NCBI RefSeq assembly: GCF_006152065.1
Contig: NZ_VDFW01000010.1
Location: forward strand, 1 to 64,000
DNA: 64,000 nt
From: Amycolatopsis alkalitolerans
Lineage (GTDB): Bacteria; Actinomycetota; Actinomycetes; Mycobacteriales; Pseudonocardiaceae
Direction: 5' to 3'
Shown here: piece after piece, positions 7,641 through 21,038 of the stretch
How positions within the stretch are numbered: the first letter of the stretch is position 1
How the letters are laid out: each line of letters opens with the position of its first letter
Made by a program: the position numbers and the translations under genes
The notes under the pieces: model-generated
Seen by the model: only the letters and a program-made list of their open reading frames with translations
What the model was told of the DNA's origin: nothing
Database searches by the model: none

Positions 7641-7934
7641 TCACGCCTTCTGATACGTGACGTTTCCTTTGTGGATGATCGAATCGACGATGCCGACAAC
7701 CGCGCGGTCGGCCGGCACCTCGGCGCCCGCCGCGACGCGCGCCGCGCCCCCTCGCGCGACGAGCACGACCTCGCCGGTACCGGCCCCGATGAGGTCCATC
7801 GCGACGTAGACCGCTCCCCCCGGCTGCTCGCAATCGGCATCCACGGCGTCCCGCACCAGCAGCAGCGTGTGGCGTTCGAGCCCGGCCGCTTTCACGGTCG
7901 AGACGACCTGACCGAGCACCGTGGCGAGCTGCAT
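7641..7934 (-). CDS. BMC-P pentameric vertex protein (EutN/CcmL family)
   Basis: A 97-residue EutN/CcmL-fold protein, of usual length, with [16 protein letters not shown] at the N terminus, [18 protein letters not shown] in the middle and [12 protein letters not shown] near the end. Pentamers of this family cap the vertices of the polyhedral shell. First gene of the BMC operon; the ATG has GGAGGTGA upstream. Confidence 0.95.
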
Positions 7935-8155
7935 GCCCGGTCACCTCCGTTGGTCGGGTGATGGCGCGATCCGAGCACGCCATCGATGAGGTGGACGGTA
8001 GGAGACGCCCGGGGCCGCGGCGCTATCCTCACGGGACAACGTGATCCAGGCTCGCTGTCCTTCCGTTCCCTGGCCGCCCGCCCTGAGATCGGCGAGGCTG
8101 CTCGTGATACTGGACAACACTGTCCCCGAGCAGACGAGGCCTGGAGGGTTCACCG
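7935..8155. promoter_or_regulatory. Divergent promoter region with GGACA/TGTCC half-sites
   Basis: This 221-bp intergenic region must hold the promoters of the BMC operon (leftward) and the DUF7065-like/HAD operon (rightward). It contains GGACA at 8034 and 8112 and TGTCC at 8056 and 8121; the last pair forms a dyad with a 4-nt spacer. The same half-sites recur before the dikinase operon (15296-15332). They are candidate binding sites for the GAF/PucR regulator, which is inference only. Confidence 0.4.
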
Positions 8156-9142
8156 GTGATCCGTCCCGAAGACGCGCAATTCCACCCCCCGACCAGCGAC
8201 GACCCGCTGTGGGCCGAGACGAACTACTTCGGTCTCTACGCGGGTCAGGACACCGGGACCCCGGTCAACATCGGTGTCTACGGGCTGTTCCGGGAACCGC
8301 TCGGCATCGCCGGTTCCACCGTGTCCGTCAACGGCAAGCGCGTGACCACGCCCTGGGCTGCCGACTACTGGGACGCGTGGGAGCATCTCCCGCTGCCCCG
8401 GCCCGGCGACCTCCTGCACTACGACCTGGCGAACGGCTTACGCGTGGCATGCAAGGAGCCGAACCGCATCTGGGACGTCGATTTCGTCGACGAAGAGGCC
8501 GGGATGGAGCTGCGCTTCCGGTTCACCGCGCTGATGGAGCCTTACGACATCAACGATCCCGGCCAGGACCCGCTGGCCGCCGGCCGTGACCTCGACCTCA
8601 CCTGGGGGCACGCCTACGCCGGGCACTTCGACCTCACCGGCAGGATCGAAGGTGAACTGTCCCTTCGTGGCAGGCACCTGCCGATCGACTGTGTGTCCAC
8701 TATGGACCACAGCTGGGGTGTCCGCGCCGAGCGGCAGACCTCGCGACTGTGCTGGCTGCACGCGCACTTCTCCCCCGAGTTCGCCATCCACGGCCTGTTC
8801 GACTTCACCACGGAGAACGGGCCGGACGCACCCAGCCCGCTCAGCCTCACCCACGGATACGTGCTCGAGCAAGGCAAGGTCCGCGGGCTCAAGGCCGGCG
8901 GCGGCACCTCATGGCGGTCCGGGTTCTACCCCGAACGCGTCGAACTGCGGGTCACCGACACCGACGACGTGACGTGGGACCTGCACGGGGCGGCGCTGAC
9001 CACCTTCCCCTGGCAGGCCTGGCCCGGCACCGTCGGCCACAACTGCCTGCACAGGTGGTCCTGCGACGGGCAGACCGGGTACGGCGAGATCATGGACTTC
9101 ATCGGCCTCGGCGAACTCGGCGCCGCCTACAACCGGGCTTGA
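8156..9142 (+). CDS. DUF7065/CrtC-like protein next to the BMC operon
   Basis: A 328-residue soluble protein without signal peptide or membrane segment. Its pattern (TNYFGLYAGQDTG, MELRFRFTAL, STMDHSWGVR, FYPERVELRVTD) resembles the lipocalin-like hydroxyneurosporene-synthase/DUF7065 group, in which paired beta-barrel domains handle hydrophobic or terpenoid substrates. The GTG start has a GGAGGG ribosome site. Its divergent arrangement with the shell operon, and the HAD phosphatase 4 bp downstream, suggest it belongs to the BMC pathway. The reaction is unknown. Confidence 0.6.
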   Translation: MIRPEDAQFHPPTSDDPLWAETNYFGLYAGQDTGTPVNIGVYGLFREPLGIAGSTVSVNGKRVTTPWAADYWDAWEHLPLPRPGDLLHYDLANGLRVACKEPNRIWDVDFVDEEAGMELRFRFTALMEPYDINDPGQDPLAAGRDLDLTWGHAYAGHFDLTGRIEGELSLRGRHLPIDCVSTMDHSWGVRAERQTSRLCWLHAHFSPEFAIHGLFDFTTENGPDAPSPLSLTHGYVLEQGKVRGLKAGGGTSWRSGFYPERVELRVTDTDDVTWDLHGAALTTFPWQAWPGTVGHNCLHRWSCDGQTGYGEIMDFIGLGELGAAYNRA

Positions 9143-9146
9143 GCGC

Positions 9147-10064
9147 ATGAGCGACCAGAAACCCCCGGCGCGCGCGGTCATCTTCGACCTGGACGGCACC
9201 CTCGTCCAGACCCGCGTCGCGTCCTGGGAGATCTTCTCCCGGATCAACGACCGGTTCGGCCTCGGCGTCGACAGCCGGGACAAGTACTTCGACCTCTTTC
9301 AGGGCAACGTCTTCGCCTCGATCCGGAAGCTGTGCCGCGACGAACAGCAGGCGGCCGCGGTGTCCGAGGCGTTTCTGTCGCTGCTGCGCGAGGACTACAC
9401 GCCGGCGCTGGTGCCCGGCGTGGCCGAGGTCGTGCGGACCCTCGCCGGGCACTGCACGCTGGCGGTGATGTCGTCCAACGCGATGCAGGTGTTGCGCCGC
9501 GTCCTGGCAGGCAACGGCCTGGCCTACTGTTTCGCCCACGTCTTCGGCGGCGACGTGACGCCGGACAAACGCACCGCGATCGCGACGTTCCTCGCGGACA
9601 GCGGCAACGGTTTCGGACGCCGCTGCGCGGCGGACTACGACGAGAGCGGACACGTCCGCACCCCGGACCGCGACAGCACGGTCCTGGTCACCGACACCGC
9701 CGGCGACGTGCGTGACGCGCTCGATGCCGGGATCAGGGTGGTGGGCGTGGCCTGGGGCATGCACGGCGTCGGCGAACTCACGGCCGCCGGCGCCGAGTTC
9801 GTGGCGCTGTGGCCTCAGGAACTGCCGGCCTATCTCCTCGGCGACGCGGCCGCGGCCGGCCCTGTCGGGGCCTGCGCCGTTACTCCCGCCGCGCCGGACA
9901 CCTGCGACTGCGGGTGCGGCGGCAACTGCTCCGAAGCGGCCGTCGCGCCACGGCGCGCCCGGCGCCGAGCGGCGGTCGGCACGCTGGTGGCGGCCATGCC
10001 CACCGAACAGGATCCCGGCCCGGCGCCGGAACTGCTCGATGCCATCACCCGCATCTGCGGGTAA
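9147..10064 (+). CDS. HAD-family phosphatase with cysteine-rich C-terminal tail
   Basis: A 305-residue HAD hydrolase of the phosphoglycolate-phosphatase type. Motif I is FDLDGTLV, motif II VMSSNAM, the lysine of motif III lies in TPDKRTAI, and motif IV is VTDTAGDVRDALDAG. After the core (ends ~residue 235) comes an unusual tail with CDCGCGGNC at about 251-259 and a basic stretch (RRARRRA). The tail could bind metal or dock to a partner. The gene is coupled to the DUF7065-like gene and convergent with the dikinase operon. It may dephosphorylate a pathway intermediate or the product of the dikinase (inference). Confidence 0.8.
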   Translation: MSDQKPPARAVIFDLDGTLVQTRVASWEIFSRINDRFGLGVDSRDKYFDLFQGNVFASIRKLCRDEQQAAAVSEAFLSLLREDYTPALVPGVAEVVRTLAGHCTLAVMSSNAMQVLRRVLAGNGLAYCFAHVFGGDVTPDKRTAIATFLADSGNGFGRRCAADYDESGHVRTPDRDSTVLVTDTAGDVRDALDAGIRVVGVAWGMHGVGELTAAGAEFVALWPQELPAYLLGDAAAAGPVGACAVTPAAPDTCDCGCGGNCSEAAVAPRRARRRAAVGTLVAAMPTEQDPGPAPELLDAITRICG

Positions 10065-16196: not shown

Positions 16197-16445
16197 TCAG
16201 CGGAACCCCATCCAGACACAAGGTCCGGCGCCCGCCGCCAGCGGCGCGCAGTTCCACCCCCGCGTCGCGGGATAACGGAACCGGCTCGGATCGCCGGGGT
16301 GGTGTTCACTGTAGCTACCGCCGATTTCCTCGAACAGCACCTCGATGAGTTCCCCGTCGTCGTTCCTGACCTCGATGCGCTGCGTCGACGGCTGATACGG
16401 CTCGCGGCGGTCTATTATTCCTTGTCGCGGCAGGTTGAGACCCAT
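16197..16445 (-). CDS. Divergent RiPP precursor candidate with two core cysteines
   Basis: An 82-residue peptide. The start at 16445 is preferred to two in-frame ATGs upstream because GGAG lies 6 nt before it. The N terminus LNLPRQGIIDR echoes the L-x-L-P-x-Q-A-x-P-V-x-R block of the four neighbours, but the GVEAD motif is absent and the middle is acidic (NDDGELIEVLFEEIGG). The C terminus holds two cysteines ten residues apart (WNCAPLAAGAGPCVWMGFR). It is last in the operon. It could be a precursor of a different subtype or an accessory peptide. Confidence 0.55.
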   Translation of the reverse strand: MGLNLPRQGIIDRREPYQPSTQRIEVRNDDGELIEVLFEEIGGSYSEHHPGDPSRFRYPATRGWNCAPLAAGAGPCVWMGFR

Positions 16446-16541
16446 GGTCATCTCCATCAGGACGCTCTACCAAGAAGATAGCCCGTTACGACGGACCAGG
16501 CACCACGCGCAGCGCGGAACCTGGTCCGTCTTCGCCGGGAT

Positions 16542-16763
16542 TCAGAAAATCCCGCCGAGCAGGCCTCCCAGTCCCTTGACGATCCCACCGGAGCCCGGCA
16601 GAACCGACTCGGCCACGCCGGCGCCGATGTTGAGCAGGTCGCCGAGGCCGAAGTCGGCCTCAACGCCGTTCGTGCCCTTGCCGCCGGCCGTCCCGGCCCG
16701 GTCGACGGGAGCGGCCTGCATCGGGAGGCTCAGGCCCGGTCGCCGCATTCCCTGATCATTCAT
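16542..16763 (-). CDS. RiPP precursor peptide A (GVEAD family)
   Basis: A 73-residue peptide with an AAAGGAG ribosome site. Residues 11-22 form the shared block LSLPMQAAPVDR, residues 33-37 are GVEAD, and the remaining 36 residues are glycine-rich, hydrophobic and nearly uncharged, ending GLGGLLGGIF. The GVEAD motif resembles the GLEAS/GVEAS recognition sequence where cyanobactin leader proteases cut. The core therefore probably starts at residue 38. Such a core resembles membrane-active bacteriocins, but function is unknown. Confidence 0.75.
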   Translation of the reverse strand: MNDQGMRRPGLSLPMQAAPVDRAGTAGGKGTNGVEADFGLGDLLNIGAGVAESVLPGSGGIVKGLGGLLGGIF

Positions 16764-16829
16764 CGTCTTTTCTCCTTTGTCGTAGATCGCGGCTCACGTT
16801 CATTTCGGATCAGTGCTGTGCCGTGCTCG

Positions 16830-17054
16830 TCAGAACAGGTCGCCCAACCAGCTCCCGACCTGTTTGACGATCGGCGGGCCCAGCGTGGTGGCGGCCAAAC
16901 CCAGCAGGGCATCGTCAATCCCGAACAAGTCCGCCTCGACGCCACCGCCGGCCGGCCCGGCGGCGCCGGGTGCTCTGTTCACCGGTGCCGCCTGCAGCGG
17001 AAGGCTCAGCGCTTGGCGCCTGCCCGCGACATGTGTTCCAGGTGCGGAGGTCAT
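16830..17054 (-). CDS. RiPP precursor peptide B (GVEAD family)
   Basis: A 74-residue peptide: block LSLPLQAAPVNR at 16-27, an Ala/Gly/Pro linker, GVEAD at 38-42, then a 32-residue core (LFGIDDALLGLAATTLGPP, ending GSWLGDLF). GGAG lies 10 nt before the ATG. The leader is close to that of peptide A while the core differs, the usual pattern for paralogous precursors matured by one protease. Confidence 0.75.
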   Translation of the reverse strand: MTSAPGTHVAGRRQALSLPLQAAPVNRAPGAAGPAGGGVEADLFGIDDALLGLAATTLGPPIVKQVGSWLGDLF

Positions 17055-17088
17055 CCGTTTTCATCTCCATTCCAGATCCGGCGGGACG

Positions 17089-17292
17089 CTAACTGTTGAG
17101 CCAGTCCTTGGCGTATTGCCAGGCGTAGGCGCCGGGTGCCTCGATCCAGTCGCCTATCGGCAACCCCCACAGGTCGGCCTCCACGCCGGTACCGAACGAC
17201 GCCACCGCCTCGCCGCGGGCGATCGGCGCGGCTTGCGCCGGCACCTGCAGCGCCACGCCCGTCGTGGCGTTCCCTTTCCTGGTCGTGGTCAC
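17089..17292 (-). CDS. RiPP precursor peptide C (GVEAD family)
   Basis: A 67-residue peptide from a GTG start at 17292, chosen because AAAGGAG lies 8 nt upstream; a GTG at 17301 overlaps that site and is less likely. The shared block reads VALQVPAQAAPIAR, GVEAD is at 36-40, and the 27-residue core is aromatic (LWGLPIGDWIEAPGAYAW through DWLNS). The 230-bp repeat element lies immediately upstream and separates this gene from precursor D and the protease. Confidence 0.75.
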   Translation of the reverse strand: MTTTRKGNATTGVALQVPAQAAPIARGEAVASFGTGVEADLWGLPIGDWIEAPGAYAWQYAKDWLNS

Positions 17293-17322
17293 TTCCTGCA
17301 CTCCTTTCGTCGTGTCGATCGG

Positions 17323-17552
17323 CTAGTGTCGTGTGATCCTGTCCGGTTTACGTTGCCGTGTTTGCCCGTAGGGTCGGTGGGTTTGTCCGCTGCGGTGTCG
17401 AGTTGGCAGGTCCGGTCGCTGACTGTGCCCCCGGCGACAGCGGCCGGCCAACTCGATAACGCCCCGAGCCAACTCAGCGACGCCAAGGGCCAACTCAGTA
17501 CCCTGGCAAACAAACACACCCGCGCAAAGACAACAAGATCACGAAACACTAG
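17323..17552. repeat. 230-bp MITE-like element with imperfect terminal inverted repeats
   Basis: Both ends begin CTAGTGT; over 20 bases the left end (CTAGTGTCGTGTGATCCTGT) and the complement of the right end (CTAGTGTTTCGTGATCTTGT) match at 16 positions. The inside has no coding-like frame but contains GCCAACTC three times at an exact 21-bp spacing (17447, 17468, 17489) and its complement at 17400. The right end is duplicated at positions 1-24 of the window. It interrupts the RiPP operon between precursors C and D and provides the stop codon of D. A non-autonomous transposon is the likeliest explanation; no transposase is present. Confidence 0.65.
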
Positions 17553-17752
17553 ACGGAGATCCCGTAGTTGGTCGCGTAACACATTTGCCTCGCGAGCCCT
17601 TTCAGCCCGCTACACGCCGACTGATCCGCTTCCACGCCAGGGCCGATGTCCGACTGCGCGGGAAGCGCCCGGTCGCGGTGGACGGGCAGCGCCTGCGGGG
17701 GCAAGGTCAGGGCCGAACGCGGCAATCGCGCGCGTGTCGATGGAGTATCCAT
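17549..17752 (-). CDS. RiPP precursor peptide D (GVEAD family, two cysteines)
   Basis: A 67-residue peptide 31 bp after the protease gene. The shared block is LTLPPQALPVHR, GVEAD is at 39-43, and the 24-residue core has cysteines at 47 and 58 (QSACSGLKGLARQMCYATNY). The TAG stop at 17549-17551 belongs to the end of the inserted repeat, so the original core may have been longer or have had another C terminus. Longer in-frame starts upstream lack a ribosome site and overlap the protease. Confidence 0.72.
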   Translation of the reverse strand: MDTPSTRARLPRSALTLPPQALPVHRDRALPAQSDIGPGVEADQSACSGLKGLARQMCYATNYGISV

Positions 17753-17783
17753 GGGCTTCCGTTCCTCTCCGCCACGGTGACCG

Positions 17784-19967
17784 CTAAATGCCACCGAGGA
17801 AGCGGTGTGCTGGTGCCAGGCTGACCGGCAGGTCGTCGCTGACATCGATGGTGAACAGGTAAGAAACCTTCGCCCGCCGGTCGTTTTCCGGGTCGAAGAA
17901 GGTCACGACGACGTCCCAGCAATCGGAGTCGATGCGGTCGTAAGGGCTCTTCGTGACGGTGATCGTGTCCAGCGTGTAAAGGTTCTCGCCGTCGGCGGTG
18001 CGCCGGGGGACGTAGTTGCCCGACAGCATCCCGGACCTGATCTCCTGGGTCACCATGAACGCGTTGGTTCCGGCGTAGTTGAGGGCCCGGTCCGCCGGAA
18101 GCTGACCGAGGTTGCGGAACTGGTAATAGATCTTGTCCAGGAACGCGCGGACGTTCTGCTCGAGCATCGCGTCGTCGATCGTGCCTTCCATGCCCCTGGT
18201 TCTGGCGTCCCGCTTGACCTCGCCCGTGGCGGCCCTCACCAGTGCGGGCTCGTTCCACGTGTGGATGCCGCGGCTCTTGACCTCCACCACGGGGACGATC
18301 TGGCCGGAGAACAACCGCACGGTGCGGTTCGTCAGCCGGCCGGGGATCGATACGCGGGAGATGAACCCGTCGTCTTCGATCGGTAACGCCTGGCCGACGA
18401 TCGCGTCGCGGAATGTCCGGTACACGTGCGAGACCGGGAGGTAGGCCGGCGGGGAGCCGAGCAGCCGTTTCAGGTCGTCGCCGCCGGCGTCGACGGCCTT
18501 GTCCACCTGCTCCTGCCATCCGGCGCCGGTGCCGACCTCGCCCCAGTCCATCCCGACCGGCATTTCCGCTTCGAGGGCGTAGAGCGGTGTGCGGTCCATG
18601 TTCAGCGTCCAGGTCACCTTGTCGGACGCCCACGGGTTGCCCGCGAGATACCTGGCCAGCTGGTTGGCGTCGTACGGGTTGGCCGGACCGGTGGTGTAGG
18701 TGCCGTCCTCGGCCGGCAACTCCGGGCGGTCCATCTGCTGCCGGAAACTGTCCCGGCGAGCCTCGGTCCGGTAGTCGAACCCGATCGTGCCGATCGCGTA
18801 GACGAGTTGAGGCTTGCCGGAATCGCCGCAGTCGCAGGACGCGCGGACACCGCCGGTGGCCGCGGGCGCCCGCGACGAGAGCGGAGCCGCTGGACTCGAA
18901 ACCCGCTCCGGCGGTGGGTCGTCCGCCTGCTGGGCGACGGGCACACCGAGCTGGTCCGGGTCGCCGGCGGCGGTGACGCTCGCGCCCTCGGCGTCCGCGG
19001 CCGCTCTCTCCGGCTGCTGTTCCGCGGTTGCTTCGGCCGGTGGGACTGGAGTGGTGTCGGTATTGGTCACGGCCGTGTTCCTTCCCCTTGTGACGTGGTC
19101 GTATGCCCGGGCGACGGCCAAGTCGCCCACAAGATGCCGCTCGCACTCGGGAGATTTCGCCGGGTCGCATGGCGTGGCGGCATCCAGCAGCAGCCTGCCG
19201 ATCTTCGCCGGATCGGGTTTCTGTCCATGGCGAAGCTCCGACGCCAGCAGCAACGCCGCGATGCCCGACACGACCGGGGTCGCGAAGCTGCTGCCGGTGA
19301 GGGCACGGACTCCACCACCCGGAACCGCGCCGAGCATCCCCGCGCCCGGGGCGAGGATGCCGTTCCTCAGGTAGGCCTGCCCCCAGTTGCTGGCCTCGAG
19401 CGGCTCACCGTTCTCGCCGGCCGCGCCGACGGCCAGGACCGAGGGCACGGCGGCCGGCACCTGAACGCACTCGCACCCGTCGTTGCCCGTGGCGGCGACG
19501 ACGAGGACACCGTTGTCTTCGCATTGCCGCAGTGCTCGCGCCAGCAGGCTGTCCGCCTGGCCATCGGGGGTGCGCTCGCCACCACTGATGTTGATGACGT
19601 GCGCGCCTTCCTGCAGCGCACGTTCGATCGCCCTGGCCAGATCCAGCTGGGACGCTCTCGTGTCCTCGACGTCGGCACCGTCCCGGAAGACGGGCAGGAC
19701 GAGACCCCGGCAGCGGGGGGCGAGGCCTTCCTGCGGCGAGCCCGGCTGACCGAACAGCAAGCTCGTGACGTGCGTGCCGTGCACCGACATCGGCCCGCCG
19801 CCGGCCGGCTCCCGCACCAACGTGTCGATTCGCGTGAGGTCGGCGCCGTCGAAGCAGGGATGGCTCAGATCCGCGGGACCGTCGATCACCGCGATGCACA
19901 CGTCGGCGTCGCCGAGCAGGAGGTCCCCGGGAACCGGGAGCCCCGCCAGGACCGACCGGACGTACAT
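17784..19967 (-). CDS. Subtilisin-like protease with cyanobactin PatG-type C-terminal domain
   Basis: A 727-residue protein. Residues 1-290 form an S8 subtilase with Asp29 (IAVIDG), His66 (HGTH), Asn162 (ATGND) and Ser227 (TGSSFATP). A Pro/Ala/Glu-rich linker (~290-390) follows. The C-terminal ~330 residues match the PatG C-terminal domain of cyanobactin proteases: VYAIGTIGFDYRTEARRDSF, RVSIPGRLTNRTVRLFSGQI, DSDCWDVVVTFFDPENDRRA. It should cut precursor peptides after GVEAD, as PatA-type proteases cut after similar motifs (inference). The start at 19967 has GGGGAG 8 nt upstream. There is no signal peptide, so maturation is cytoplasmic. Confidence 0.88.
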   Translation of the reverse strand: MYVRSVLAGLPVPGDLLLGDADVCIAVIDGPADLSHPCFDGADLTRIDTLVREPAGGGPMSVHGTHVTSLLFGQPGSPQEGLAPRCRGLVLPVFRDGADVEDTRASQLDLARAIERALQEGAHVINISGGERTPDGQADSLLARALRQCEDNGVLVVAATGNDGCECVQVPAAVPSVLAVGAAGENGEPLEASNWGQAYLRNGILAPGAGMLGAVPGGGVRALTGSSFATPVVSGIAALLLASELRHGQKPDPAKIGRLLLDAATPCDPAKSPECERHLVGDLAVARAYDHVTRGRNTAVTNTDTTPVPPAEATAEQQPERAAADAEGASVTAAGDPDQLGVPVAQQADDPPPERVSSPAAPLSSRAPAATGGVRASCDCGDSGKPQLVYAIGTIGFDYRTEARRDSFRQQMDRPELPAEDGTYTTGPANPYDANQLARYLAGNPWASDKVTWTLNMDRTPLYALEAEMPVGMDWGEVGTGAGWQEQVDKAVDAGGDDLKRLLGSPPAYLPVSHVYRTFRDAIVGQALPIEDDGFISRVSIPGRLTNRTVRLFSGQIVPVVEVKSRGIHTWNEPALVRAATGEVKRDARTRGMEGTIDDAMLEQNVRAFLDKIYYQFRNLGQLPADRALNYAGTNAFMVTQEIRSGMLSGNYVPRRTADGENLYTLDTITVTKSPYDRIDSDCWDVVVTFFDPENDRRAKVSYLFTIDVSDDLPVSLAPAHRFLGGI

Positions 19968-20318
19968 CACCGCATCTCCCCTTTTCCGCGGCGGCTCGAT
20001 CGCCGTTGGCCGAGCCCGTGATTCGCTCGCCCAGTTTCGGGTTCGCCCGTGGCGGTTCCGTAGGAGCCGGCGTCTTCGGACCGTCGTGCTGACATCGCGG
20101 AATCGTCTCGGCACAGTCACCACCACGCCGCAGCCACGGGACCGGCGCCAGCCCAGCAAGAACCTTGACGCCAAAGGGATATTTCGGTAACGCACCGGTG
20201 ACGGAAAGCGACTCATCAGAAGATGTTCGCGGCATCCGCCGCCGACGGATTGGTGACGTCCGAGGGGCATCATTTCACGTCAGTGGTCCTGACAGGCCGA
20301 CAGCATCCGGGAGCCGAC
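19968..20318. promoter_or_regulatory. Divergent control region of the RiPP cluster
   Basis: A 351-bp intergenic region between the protease operon and the BTAD regulator gene. On the plus strand TTGACG (20165-20170) is followed after 17 nt by TAACGC, a plausible promoter for the regulator. No clear direct heptamer repeats of the SARP type were found. Open frames here lack coding character. Confidence 0.35.
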
Positions 20319-21038
20319 ATGACAGCTTCGGGCAACGGCGTACACCTGGCGCTCCTGGGAGGTTTCCGTCTCACCCACCTCGGCGGTGCGGTCGCGCTTT
20401 CCCTGGGCGCGCAACGTTTGCTGGCGTTGCTGGCCCTGCACGACGACGTCCATCGCGCGGCGGCGGCCGAGCAGTTGTGGCCGGACAGTTCGTCGTCGCG
20501 CGCCGCGGCGAATCTTCGGTCGGCCCTCTGGCGAGGCCGCCGGGTGGGGGCCGTACCGGTGATCGACTGTGCCGGTCCGCGCCTGCGGCTCTCGCCGGCC
20601 GCGTGCGTGGATGTCCGCGAGGTTCGTGAGCACGTCCGCCAGACCATCGACACGGAACGGCCGCCGGACAGTCACGATATCGAGTCACTGCTCGACGGCC
20701 TGGGCCGCGATCTCCTGCCGGGGTGGTCGGAGGACTGGCTGGTGCTGGAGCGCGAGCGCTGGAACCAGATTCGCCTGCATGCGCTCGAAACGCTGGCGCA
20801 ACGCCTGATGGCGGCCGGGCACTACCTGGCCGCGATGCAGACCGCGCTCGCCGCGATCGCCATCGAGCCGCTGCGGGAGACCCCGCACCGCACCGTCATG
20901 GAGATCCACGTCGCCGAAGGCAACCGGGCCAGCGCGATCATGAAGTACCAGAGCTACCGGGTTCTCCTCCAGCGAGAACTCGGGGTCGCGCCGTCGTCGA
21001 AGATGATCGCCTTGGCTCGCGGCCTGCTGCCCGGCTAA
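20319..21038 (+). CDS. BTAD-domain (SARP-like) transcriptional activator
   Basis: A 239-residue regulator: an N-terminal OmpR-type winged helix (LALLGGFRLTHLGG, LSLGAQRLLALLALHD, AAEQLWPDSSSSRAAANLRS) and a C-terminal BTAD helical domain (LETLAQRLMAAGHYLAAMQT, YQSYRVLLQRELGVAPS). This layout is typical of small SARPs that activate antibiotic clusters. The ATG at 20319 has GGGAG 5 nt upstream. It is divergent from the protease and precursor operon and probably activates it. Confidence 0.88.
   Translation: MTASGNGVHLALLGGFRLTHLGGAVALSLGAQRLLALLALHDDVHRAAAAEQLWPDSSSSRAAANLRSALWRGRRVGAVPVIDCAGPRLRLSPAACVDVREVREHVRQTIDTERPPDSHDIESLLDGLGRDLLPGWSEDWLVLERERWNQIRLHALETLAQRLMAAGHYLAAMQTALAAIAIEPLRETPHRTVMEIHVAEGNRASAIMKYQSYRVLLQRELGVAPSSKMIALARGLLPG

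Follow-up and report, generated by a model that had tools for sequence, protein, structure and literature searches.

A PatA-type protease locus with leader-bearing precursors in Amycolatopsis alkalitolerans and its relatives in other Actinobacteria

A gene cluster at positions 16197 to 21038 was studied in the first 64,000 nucleotides of contig NZ_VDFW01000010.1 of Amycolatopsis alkalitolerans (assembly GCF_006152065.1); this whole stretch is called the window below. The cluster contains the gene of a PatA-type subtilase, four short precursor genes of two types (one of type A and three of type B), the gene of a small leader-bearing protein (type C) and a divergent regulatory gene. The system is real and recurrent; it is related to cyanobactin clusters and is not a member of them, and it has apparently not been described so far. 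On balance, the sequences make it probable that the PatA-type protease alone carries out maturation, releasing linear, heterocycle-free type A and type B peptides after a GVEAx site, and that the type B peptides act on membranes.

The locus in the window

Downstream of the protease gene, four short open reading frames (ORFs) were found on the minus strand. Each of them encodes a leader block (LTLPPQALPVHR, LQVPAQAAPIAR, LSLPLQAAPVNR and LSLPMQAAPVDR) and an exact GVEAD, after which 24, 27, 32 and 36 residues follow in the ORFs at 17549-17752, 17089-17292/17301, 16830-17054 and 16542-16763, respectively. An initial annotation, made from the sequence alone, had described four consecutive short genes with a common N-terminal block and GVEAD, an upstream subtilase fused to the PatG C-terminal domain, and a divergent BTAD activator. 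All of these features were confirmed, both PatG_D and PatG_C being found in the protease and a BTAD gene at 20319-21038. The annotated precursors were correct as a list, and a fifth conserved gene within the same interval, at 16197-16445, had gone undescribed. The statement that the C-terminal parts were unrelated was right in part: three of the ends are of one physical type, hydrophobic and free of Cys, and the fourth is that of a two-Cys family with a conserved core.

The four precursors matched no family profile in Pfam or NCBIfam, and the genome of the window contained one PatG_C match. YcaO (PF02624) was not found in this genome at E≤0.001 in a search that was positive in 5 of 14 control genomes. 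This result supported the initial proposal that no azolines are formed, and azoline formation was rejected on this basis.

Type of the protease

The window protease scored 619.4 bits against TIGR03895, above the curated cut-off of 421. It contains a subtilase and a C-terminal domain of unknown function (DUF; PatG_D and PatG_C), and the structure of the PatG DUF, 4uvq, was matched by phmmer with 171 bits. In phmmer comparisons with other structures, the score was 328 bits for 4h6w, named "N-terminal cyanobactin protease", and 316, 315 and 312 bits for 4h6v, 3zxx and 3zxy, named "subtilisin-like protein", which we take to be PatA, whereas the PatG macrocyclase chains 4h6x, 4aks and 4akt gave 169, 169 and 165 bits. 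The stretch between HPCF and the catalytic His was 35 residues long in all 17 aligned single proteases, compared with 86 residues in two cyanobacterial PatG proteins; in PatA-type and tandem proteins, it measured 34-40 residues. The macrocyclase-specific insert before the catalytic His was not found in any of the 17 single proteases, including that of the window. In a tree from which L040, L097 and L073 (whose protease gene is broken and spread over two frames) were omitted, the 17 single proteases and the truncated protease of L087 lay on one side of a branch with support of 100/99. The protease is thus cyanobactin-related and nearer to the N-terminal (PatA) proteases than to the PatG macrocyclase.

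Properties of the precursors

The five-residue sites of 48 type B precursors, a count that excludes three precursors of L097, were compared. GVEAD was present in 13, GVEAN in 9 and GAAAS in 8 of them, and the others were variants; the last residue was D in 15, S in 15, N in 15 and A in 3. Exact GVEAD, the hallmark in the initial annotation, therefore held for all four window precursors and was one variant only among the relatives. The core runs to the stop codon, usually as a hydrophobic stretch, and no C-terminal follower is present. The ends were 10-38 residues long with a net charge of -3 to +2, and none of the 48 contained Cys. Their mean hydrophobicity was 0.45, compared with -0.12 for the leaders. 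In type B pairs within one locus, the mean identity was 64% for leaders and 40% for ends, and leaders were more alike than ends in 37 of 43 pairs.

In 33 of the 48 ends, and in 8 of 13 non-redundant ends (Stouffer 1e-8), the hydrophobic moment was higher at p<0.05 than in composition shuffles. As a set, the type B ends are amphipathic, in the sense that this test measures amphipathicity if the peptide is helical, the helix itself being an assumption. The end encoded at 16542-16763 (W1) did not reach significance alone (p 0.19).

In the alignment of 19 type A sequences, P18, G39, C47, G52 and C58 (window numbering) were invariant, and the majority core was SxCAxLxGPARQMCYA. The core of the first window peptide (17549-17752) is thus conserved across genera rather than variable. 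As a candidate known domain, type A was rejected: one chance-level Pfam match (E 0.21) was obtained among the 19 members, and none in NCBIfam. The leaders of types A and B were clearly alike (hhalign E 6.5e-9, 96%). Type A cores possibly form a disulphide loop, and a role of this peptide in the system is presumed from its sequence.

Occurrence in other genomes

Nineteen distinct actinobacterial loci were collected in which the protease gene is followed by type A, one to four type B and type C genes, all three types being present in 19 of 19. They are the window, L084, L083, L072-L078, L095, L082, L036, L037, L038, L040, L092, L093 and L094. A locus was included when it had one full-length PatA-type protease and the region downstream; the types were recognised by pattern and by eye, and type A of L082 by inspection of its frames. 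Left out were L039 and L087, in which the protease is cut by a contig end, L032 and L079, which duplicate the genome of L084 and the plasmid of L095, respectively, the tandem-protease loci L080, L081, L085 and L086, the split PatG_C loci L088-L091 and a second S. xanthophaeus record (H4). One type B gene is placed after the type C gene in L083, L036 and L038. A BTAD homologue was found upstream in 18 of the 19 loci and was not found in L082.

Of 297 genomes in the family of the window, 6 had a TIGR03895 match above the cut-off; among these, G017 and G153 carry tandem forms and the locus of G037 is cut by a contig end. PatG_C was matched in 4 of 396 genomes of a phylum sample and in 32 of 392 genomes of the genus of G319 (apparently Streptomyces), with 31 over the cut-off. 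A scan of named genomes gave nine loci, namely Amycolatopsis acidicola (65% identity), five Streptomyces, two cyanobacteria and one Caulobacter. Ten plasmid records had a match, five of them from Streptomyces; in the four Streptomyces copies examined, the protease is entered at NCBI as "S8 family serine peptidase", and those peptides that are annotated appear as "hypothetical protein".

When the 392 genomes of the G319 genus were searched with the type A profile, 11 genomes had a match at E≤0.001, and in ten of them it had E<1e-15 and lay beside a PatG_C match. Among the 297 genomes of the window's family, four had a match; in three of these it was strong and adjoined a TIGR03895 protein that scored above the cut-off. 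The strays were G915 (5e-4) in the former set and G118 (1e-3) in the latter. All 13 strong type A matches in the 689 genomes adjoined a PatG_C or TIGR03895 protein; the rows of the profile came from 11 of these 13 genomes, and G728 and G787 had contributed none. The locus of G787 (L097), used in no profile, has type A, three type B genes, a type C gene with a diverged end and a protease cut by the contig end. The type C profile matched in 13 of the 15 genomes in which it was searched, its rows having come from 12 of these 13 and not from G787; the two genomes with no match were the decayed G728 and G915. Co-occurrence of the leader block, GVEAx and a PatG_C subtilase in other Actinobacteria, as expected from the initial annotation, was borne out by the 19 loci and the 13 genomes.

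Two copies deviate in other ways. L096 (G728) is decayed, with a broken protease and no type C match. Genome G891 carries L078 in two copies of equal score and opposite orientation, one lying approximately 12.6 kb from a contig end and the second 6.7 kb from the opposite end, an arrangement like that of a terminal inverted repeat.

Relation to cyanobactin systems

The relevant part of a review states that cyanobactin clusters have been identified only in cyanobacteria, that the macrocyclase domain is confined to the G protease and that active clusters always have A and G (PMC4663559). Measured against the cluster definition in that part of the review, the window system has an A-type protease only and no G protease, and an RSII-like site is present with no RSIII or follower after the core (PMC4663559). 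The definition also includes B and C small proteins; type C is similar to PatB in layout, but the two profiles align with an hhalign probability of 7.6%. It resembles the PatA half of the patellamide and anacyclamide/piricyclamide systems in its PatA-type protease with PatG_D/PatG_C, in its LxPxQxxPVxR-type leader block, in its RSII-like G(L/V)E(A/P)x site and in having several precursors with variable ends. Unlike those systems, it has a single protease, no PatG macrocyclase, no follower (RSIII) and, as far as the YcaO search went, no YcaO; it belongs to Actinobacteria and has a BTAD regulator, conserved type A and type C genes and hydrophobic ends of 10-38 residues. Cyanobactins are short macrocycles.

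Comparison of type B with eight precursors (five cyanobacterial and three from Caulobacter) gave an hhalign probability of 84.7% and E 6.7e-6. Among 36 of the 48 type B sequences, five matched TIGR04446, the best with E 5.2e-5 and 23.5 bits, below the cut-off of 35, and one matched TIGR03678 (E 0.17). None of the 19 type A sequences matched the NCBIfam precursor families. Overall, the leaders show a remote but detectable relationship to those of cyanobactins.

Other arrangements with PatG_C were also seen. L085 (7305-11446), from the window's family, has a cyanobactin-like order: a 53-residue peptide with LAPPVTRK..., two ILGIT repeats and the end FADEGDE, which had no NCBIfam match, and two tandem PatA/PatG-type proteases with a small peptide between them; the macrocyclase insert was found in neither protease. 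L080, L081 and L086, from the G319 genus and the window's family, have tandem PatA/PatG-type proteases with a PatB-like peptide between them, and TIGR04220 scored 84.8 bits (cut-off 55) on that of L080 and 32 bits on that of L086. In L088 (approximately 7668-9851), PatG_C and the subtilase are separate frames, between which lie two Cys-rich peptides starting with MRIPGF and MTLPGF; this is perhaps another PatG_C-linked peptide type.

The type C protein

In 19 type C sequences, four positions (P6, R13, G43 and P53) were invariant. A DP motif was found in 18 of them, L074 having AP. The C-terminal pattern GWx(C/S)...CxWxG was present in 14 and missing from L078, L093, L036, L038 and L082; in L074, Ser replaces the first Cys. 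Type C is probably an accessory protein rather than a precursor.

It was considered whether type C is the actinobacterial counterpart of PatB/AcyB/McaB (TIGR04220), the small cyanobactin protein of unknown function. Both are small proteins of similar size encoded in a protease cluster, with a leader-like N-terminus and a DP motif, and one PatB (L033) starts with the leader-like MRLPNLSPPVKR. However, hhalign gave a probability of 7.6% (E 0.0046), TIGR04220 had no match at E up to 10 in three type C proteins and none in the type C protein of the window, and the C-terminal pattern sets most type C proteins apart. We regard such a correspondence as rather unlikely.

Proposed maturation and alternative explanations

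According to the favoured reading, the divergent regulator would control an operon that encodes a single PatA-type subtilase, several precursors and a small protein with a leader. The protease would recognise the shared N-terminal block LxLPxQAxPVxR and cut after GVEA[D/N/S/A], so that the C-terminal part is freed as a linear peptide with neither heterocycles nor a macrocycle. The products would be a set of short hydrophobic type B peptides, mostly amphipathic if helical, and one conserved two-Cys type A peptide. From their character, the type B peptides may be predicted to act on membranes, most likely as antimicrobial or surfactant-like agents.

These steps are read from the sequences as follows. 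The accessible text of one source reports that PatA-like enzymes cleave after G(L/V)E(A/P)S (PMC10885120). Cleavage after GVEAx is the natural reading because the conserved site is a motif of this type with a freer last residue. No heterocyclase, prenyltransferase, oxidase or macrocyclase is evident in the cluster, which makes the protease the most likely component to read the leader. A linear, unmodified product is suggested because the protease lacks the macrocyclase insert, the precursors lack a follower and no YcaO was found. The helix and the type A disulphide are likewise presumed.

Several observations weigh against this reading. Fifteen of the 48 type B ends, including one of the three in the window, were not amphipathic at p<0.05, and the type B cleavage positions were assigned by hand from the motif. 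The alignment of type B with cyanobactin precursors covers little beyond the leader columns, and the similarity of type A to cyanobactin-type leaders is weak (hhalign 47%, E 1.9e-4). Among the 32 genomes of the G319 genus with PatG_C, 22 had no type A match, those inspected being tandem-protease or split forms; PatG_C alone therefore does not imply the system. No exporter was present in the ORF groups common to the 17 loci compared, which leaves secretion unexplained; this comparison covers the fetched stretches (approximately 9-23 kb) and can miss short or divergent genes. Finally, one source reports that nuclear magnetic resonance showed no binding of the PatE' precursor to the PatG DUF in isolation, the PatA DUF not being the one tested (PMC4259220); this argues against the domain as the reader of the leader.

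The initial annotation had left both linear and cyclic products open. Membership of the protease in the PatA/PatG family, the RSII-like site and the cyanobactin-like leader would agree with macrocyclic cyanobactin-like peptides, which the same protease would cut and join head to tail. However, the protease is closer to the N-terminal proteases than to PatG, the insert was not found in the 17 aligned single proteases, and nothing follows the core, in most cases a run of hydrophobic residues that reaches the stop codon. Macrocyclisation was rejected since both the insert and a follower are missing; we consider it highly improbable, and the linear branch of the earlier proposal is favoured over the cyclic one. 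It may also be asked whether the ends are modified further, for example by unlinked enzymes, as in a ribosomally synthesized and post-translationally modified peptide with a tailoring step outside the cluster. The length of the leader block exceeds the needs of a cleavage site and the two-Cys type A end is strongly conserved, but no candidate tailoring gene was found in the shared ORF groups, YcaO was not found in the genome and the type B ends have no Cys, so that such tailoring appears very doubtful.

The shared ORF groups without an exporter, together with the lack of a signal peptide as seen by eye, would also suit a leader-gated cell-death or phage-defence device, in which the protease is the switch and the type B peptides, retained in the cell, kill the producer or arrest it. 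The protease occurs on five Streptomyces plasmid records, four of which were examined. Of the PADLOC models, one for a subtilase matches it with 72.5 bits and IetS with 25 bits along 72 residues, and RT-Protease_XI matches the neighbouring Trypsin_2 protein in L075 with 27 bits. However, these matches sit in peptidase domains that are common, and no PADLOC model matched the BTAD regulator, type B or type C; a defence system was rejected because the matches are confined to such domains. BTAD control and the many diversified precursors are more like a product cluster, and we regard the device as improbable.

Features of the locus and its neighbourhood

The coordinates are given in Table 1. Starts that differ from those of the longest ORFs are probable for the protease (ATG 19967), the BTAD protein (ATG 20319) and type C (ATG 16445), as suggested by homologues and upstream purine-rich stretches. 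Homologues of the protease begin with M..RSVL, and GGGGAG lies upstream of its ATG. For the type B gene at 17089, GTG 17292 is preceded by a better-spaced AAAGGAG, and the longest ORF begins at 17301. The Pfam match of the regulator is BTAD; its label as SARP is our presumption. In the divergent promoter, a scan for regulator boxes gave one pair of 14-nt repeats, 79% alike. A promoter scan of the window locus found none, and terminator-like sites numbered 6, compared with 2.0 expected, which was not interpreted.

Table 1. Coordinates of the features of the window locus
Feature	Position	Strand	Description
Type C small protein, 82 aa	16197..16445	-	N-terminal leader-like LNLPRQG-IIDRR, GDP, C-terminal GWNC...CVWMG; no GVEAx site
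Type B precursor	16542..16763	-	leader block, GVEAD, 36-residue end
Type B precursor	16830..17054	-	leader block, GVEAD, 32-residue end
Type B precursor	17089..17292	-	leader block, GVEAD, 27-residue hydrophobic end with no Cys
High-copy repeat copy	17323..17552		separates the type A gene from the first type B gene
Type A precursor	17549..17752	-	leader block, GVEAD, 24-residue end QSACSGLKGLARQMCYATNYGISV, conserved C-x10-C
PatA-type subtilase, 727 aa	17784..19967	-	PatG_D and PatG_C domains; D, H, N and S catalytic motifs (by eye)
SARP/BTAD-type transcriptional activator (SARP presumed)	20319..21038	+	divergent from the protease operon; Pfam BTAD

The repeat of approximately 230 bp at 17323-17552 had 45 matches, whole and partial, in the same genome, 69-99% identical and many of them 95-99%. 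By eye, its ends are CTAGTG/CACTAG, like those of a miniature inverted-repeat transposable element; the repeat finder detected no more than an internal inverted pair of 51 nt at 73%. One end overlaps the stop codon of the type A gene, and the repeat is not part of the function of the system.

ORFs of at least 70 residues were compared at E≤1e-8 among 17 loci, L039 included. The protease group comprised 17 loci, BTAD 12, a hemopexin-type group up to 8, type C 7 and 3, and type A 6. The remaining groups comprised 3-4 loci each, mostly the close set L073, L074, L076 and L077, and no candidate tailoring enzyme was found in groups of at least three loci. In the hemopexin-type group, the proteins of L074, L077 and L078 have hemopexin repeats according to Pfam, and that of L083 has none. 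In the group of L037, L072 and L075, Trypsin_2 was found in L072 and L075 only. Other hydrolase-like neighbours were an M35 protein with hemopexin in L092 and, by eye, a possible glycoside-hydrolase-like protein in L097; a further one, in L094, had no Pfam match, and an HExxH motif was seen in it by eye.

Implications

In open-licence PubMed Central literature, judged by titles and the beginnings of abstracts, no description of an actinobacterial PatA-only system was found and, in line with the initial annotation, no described compound or counterpart; GVEAD occurred in none of 30 papers retrieved. Like the predicted type B products, phenol-soluble modulins and temporin-like peptides are short, unmodified, hydrophobic peptides that form amphipathic helices and come in multi-gene sets. 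Modulins are made leaderless and temporin-like peptides from secreted animal precursors, unlike the window system with its cyanobactin-type leader and protease. It is conceivable, at somewhat less than an even chance, that the loci represent an undescribed actinobacterial peptide class, in which a cyanobactin-type leader and a PatA-type protease would have no other task than to mask unmodified amphipathic helices of the temporin or modulin kind and to set them free, with a conserved two-Cys partner peptide and a leader-mimic protein.

The accessible part of one study states that the DUF of PatA and PatG was present in all cyanobactin pathways characterised by 2014 and had no known role (PMC4259220). 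If the loci do represent such a class, the conserved leader block would have no user left but the protease, and the N-terminal block, perhaps together with the PatA DUF, could be assigned to precursor recognition. The system is a natural minimal one, in which a leader block, a cleavage site, a protease and its DUF remain and no modifying enzyme is evident. A single enzyme and a short substrate would thus suffice to test the DUF and the leader block. The catalogue of 48 precursors also provides a list of predicted unmodified hydrophobic peptides, and these precursors point to a protease that may accept very different cores.
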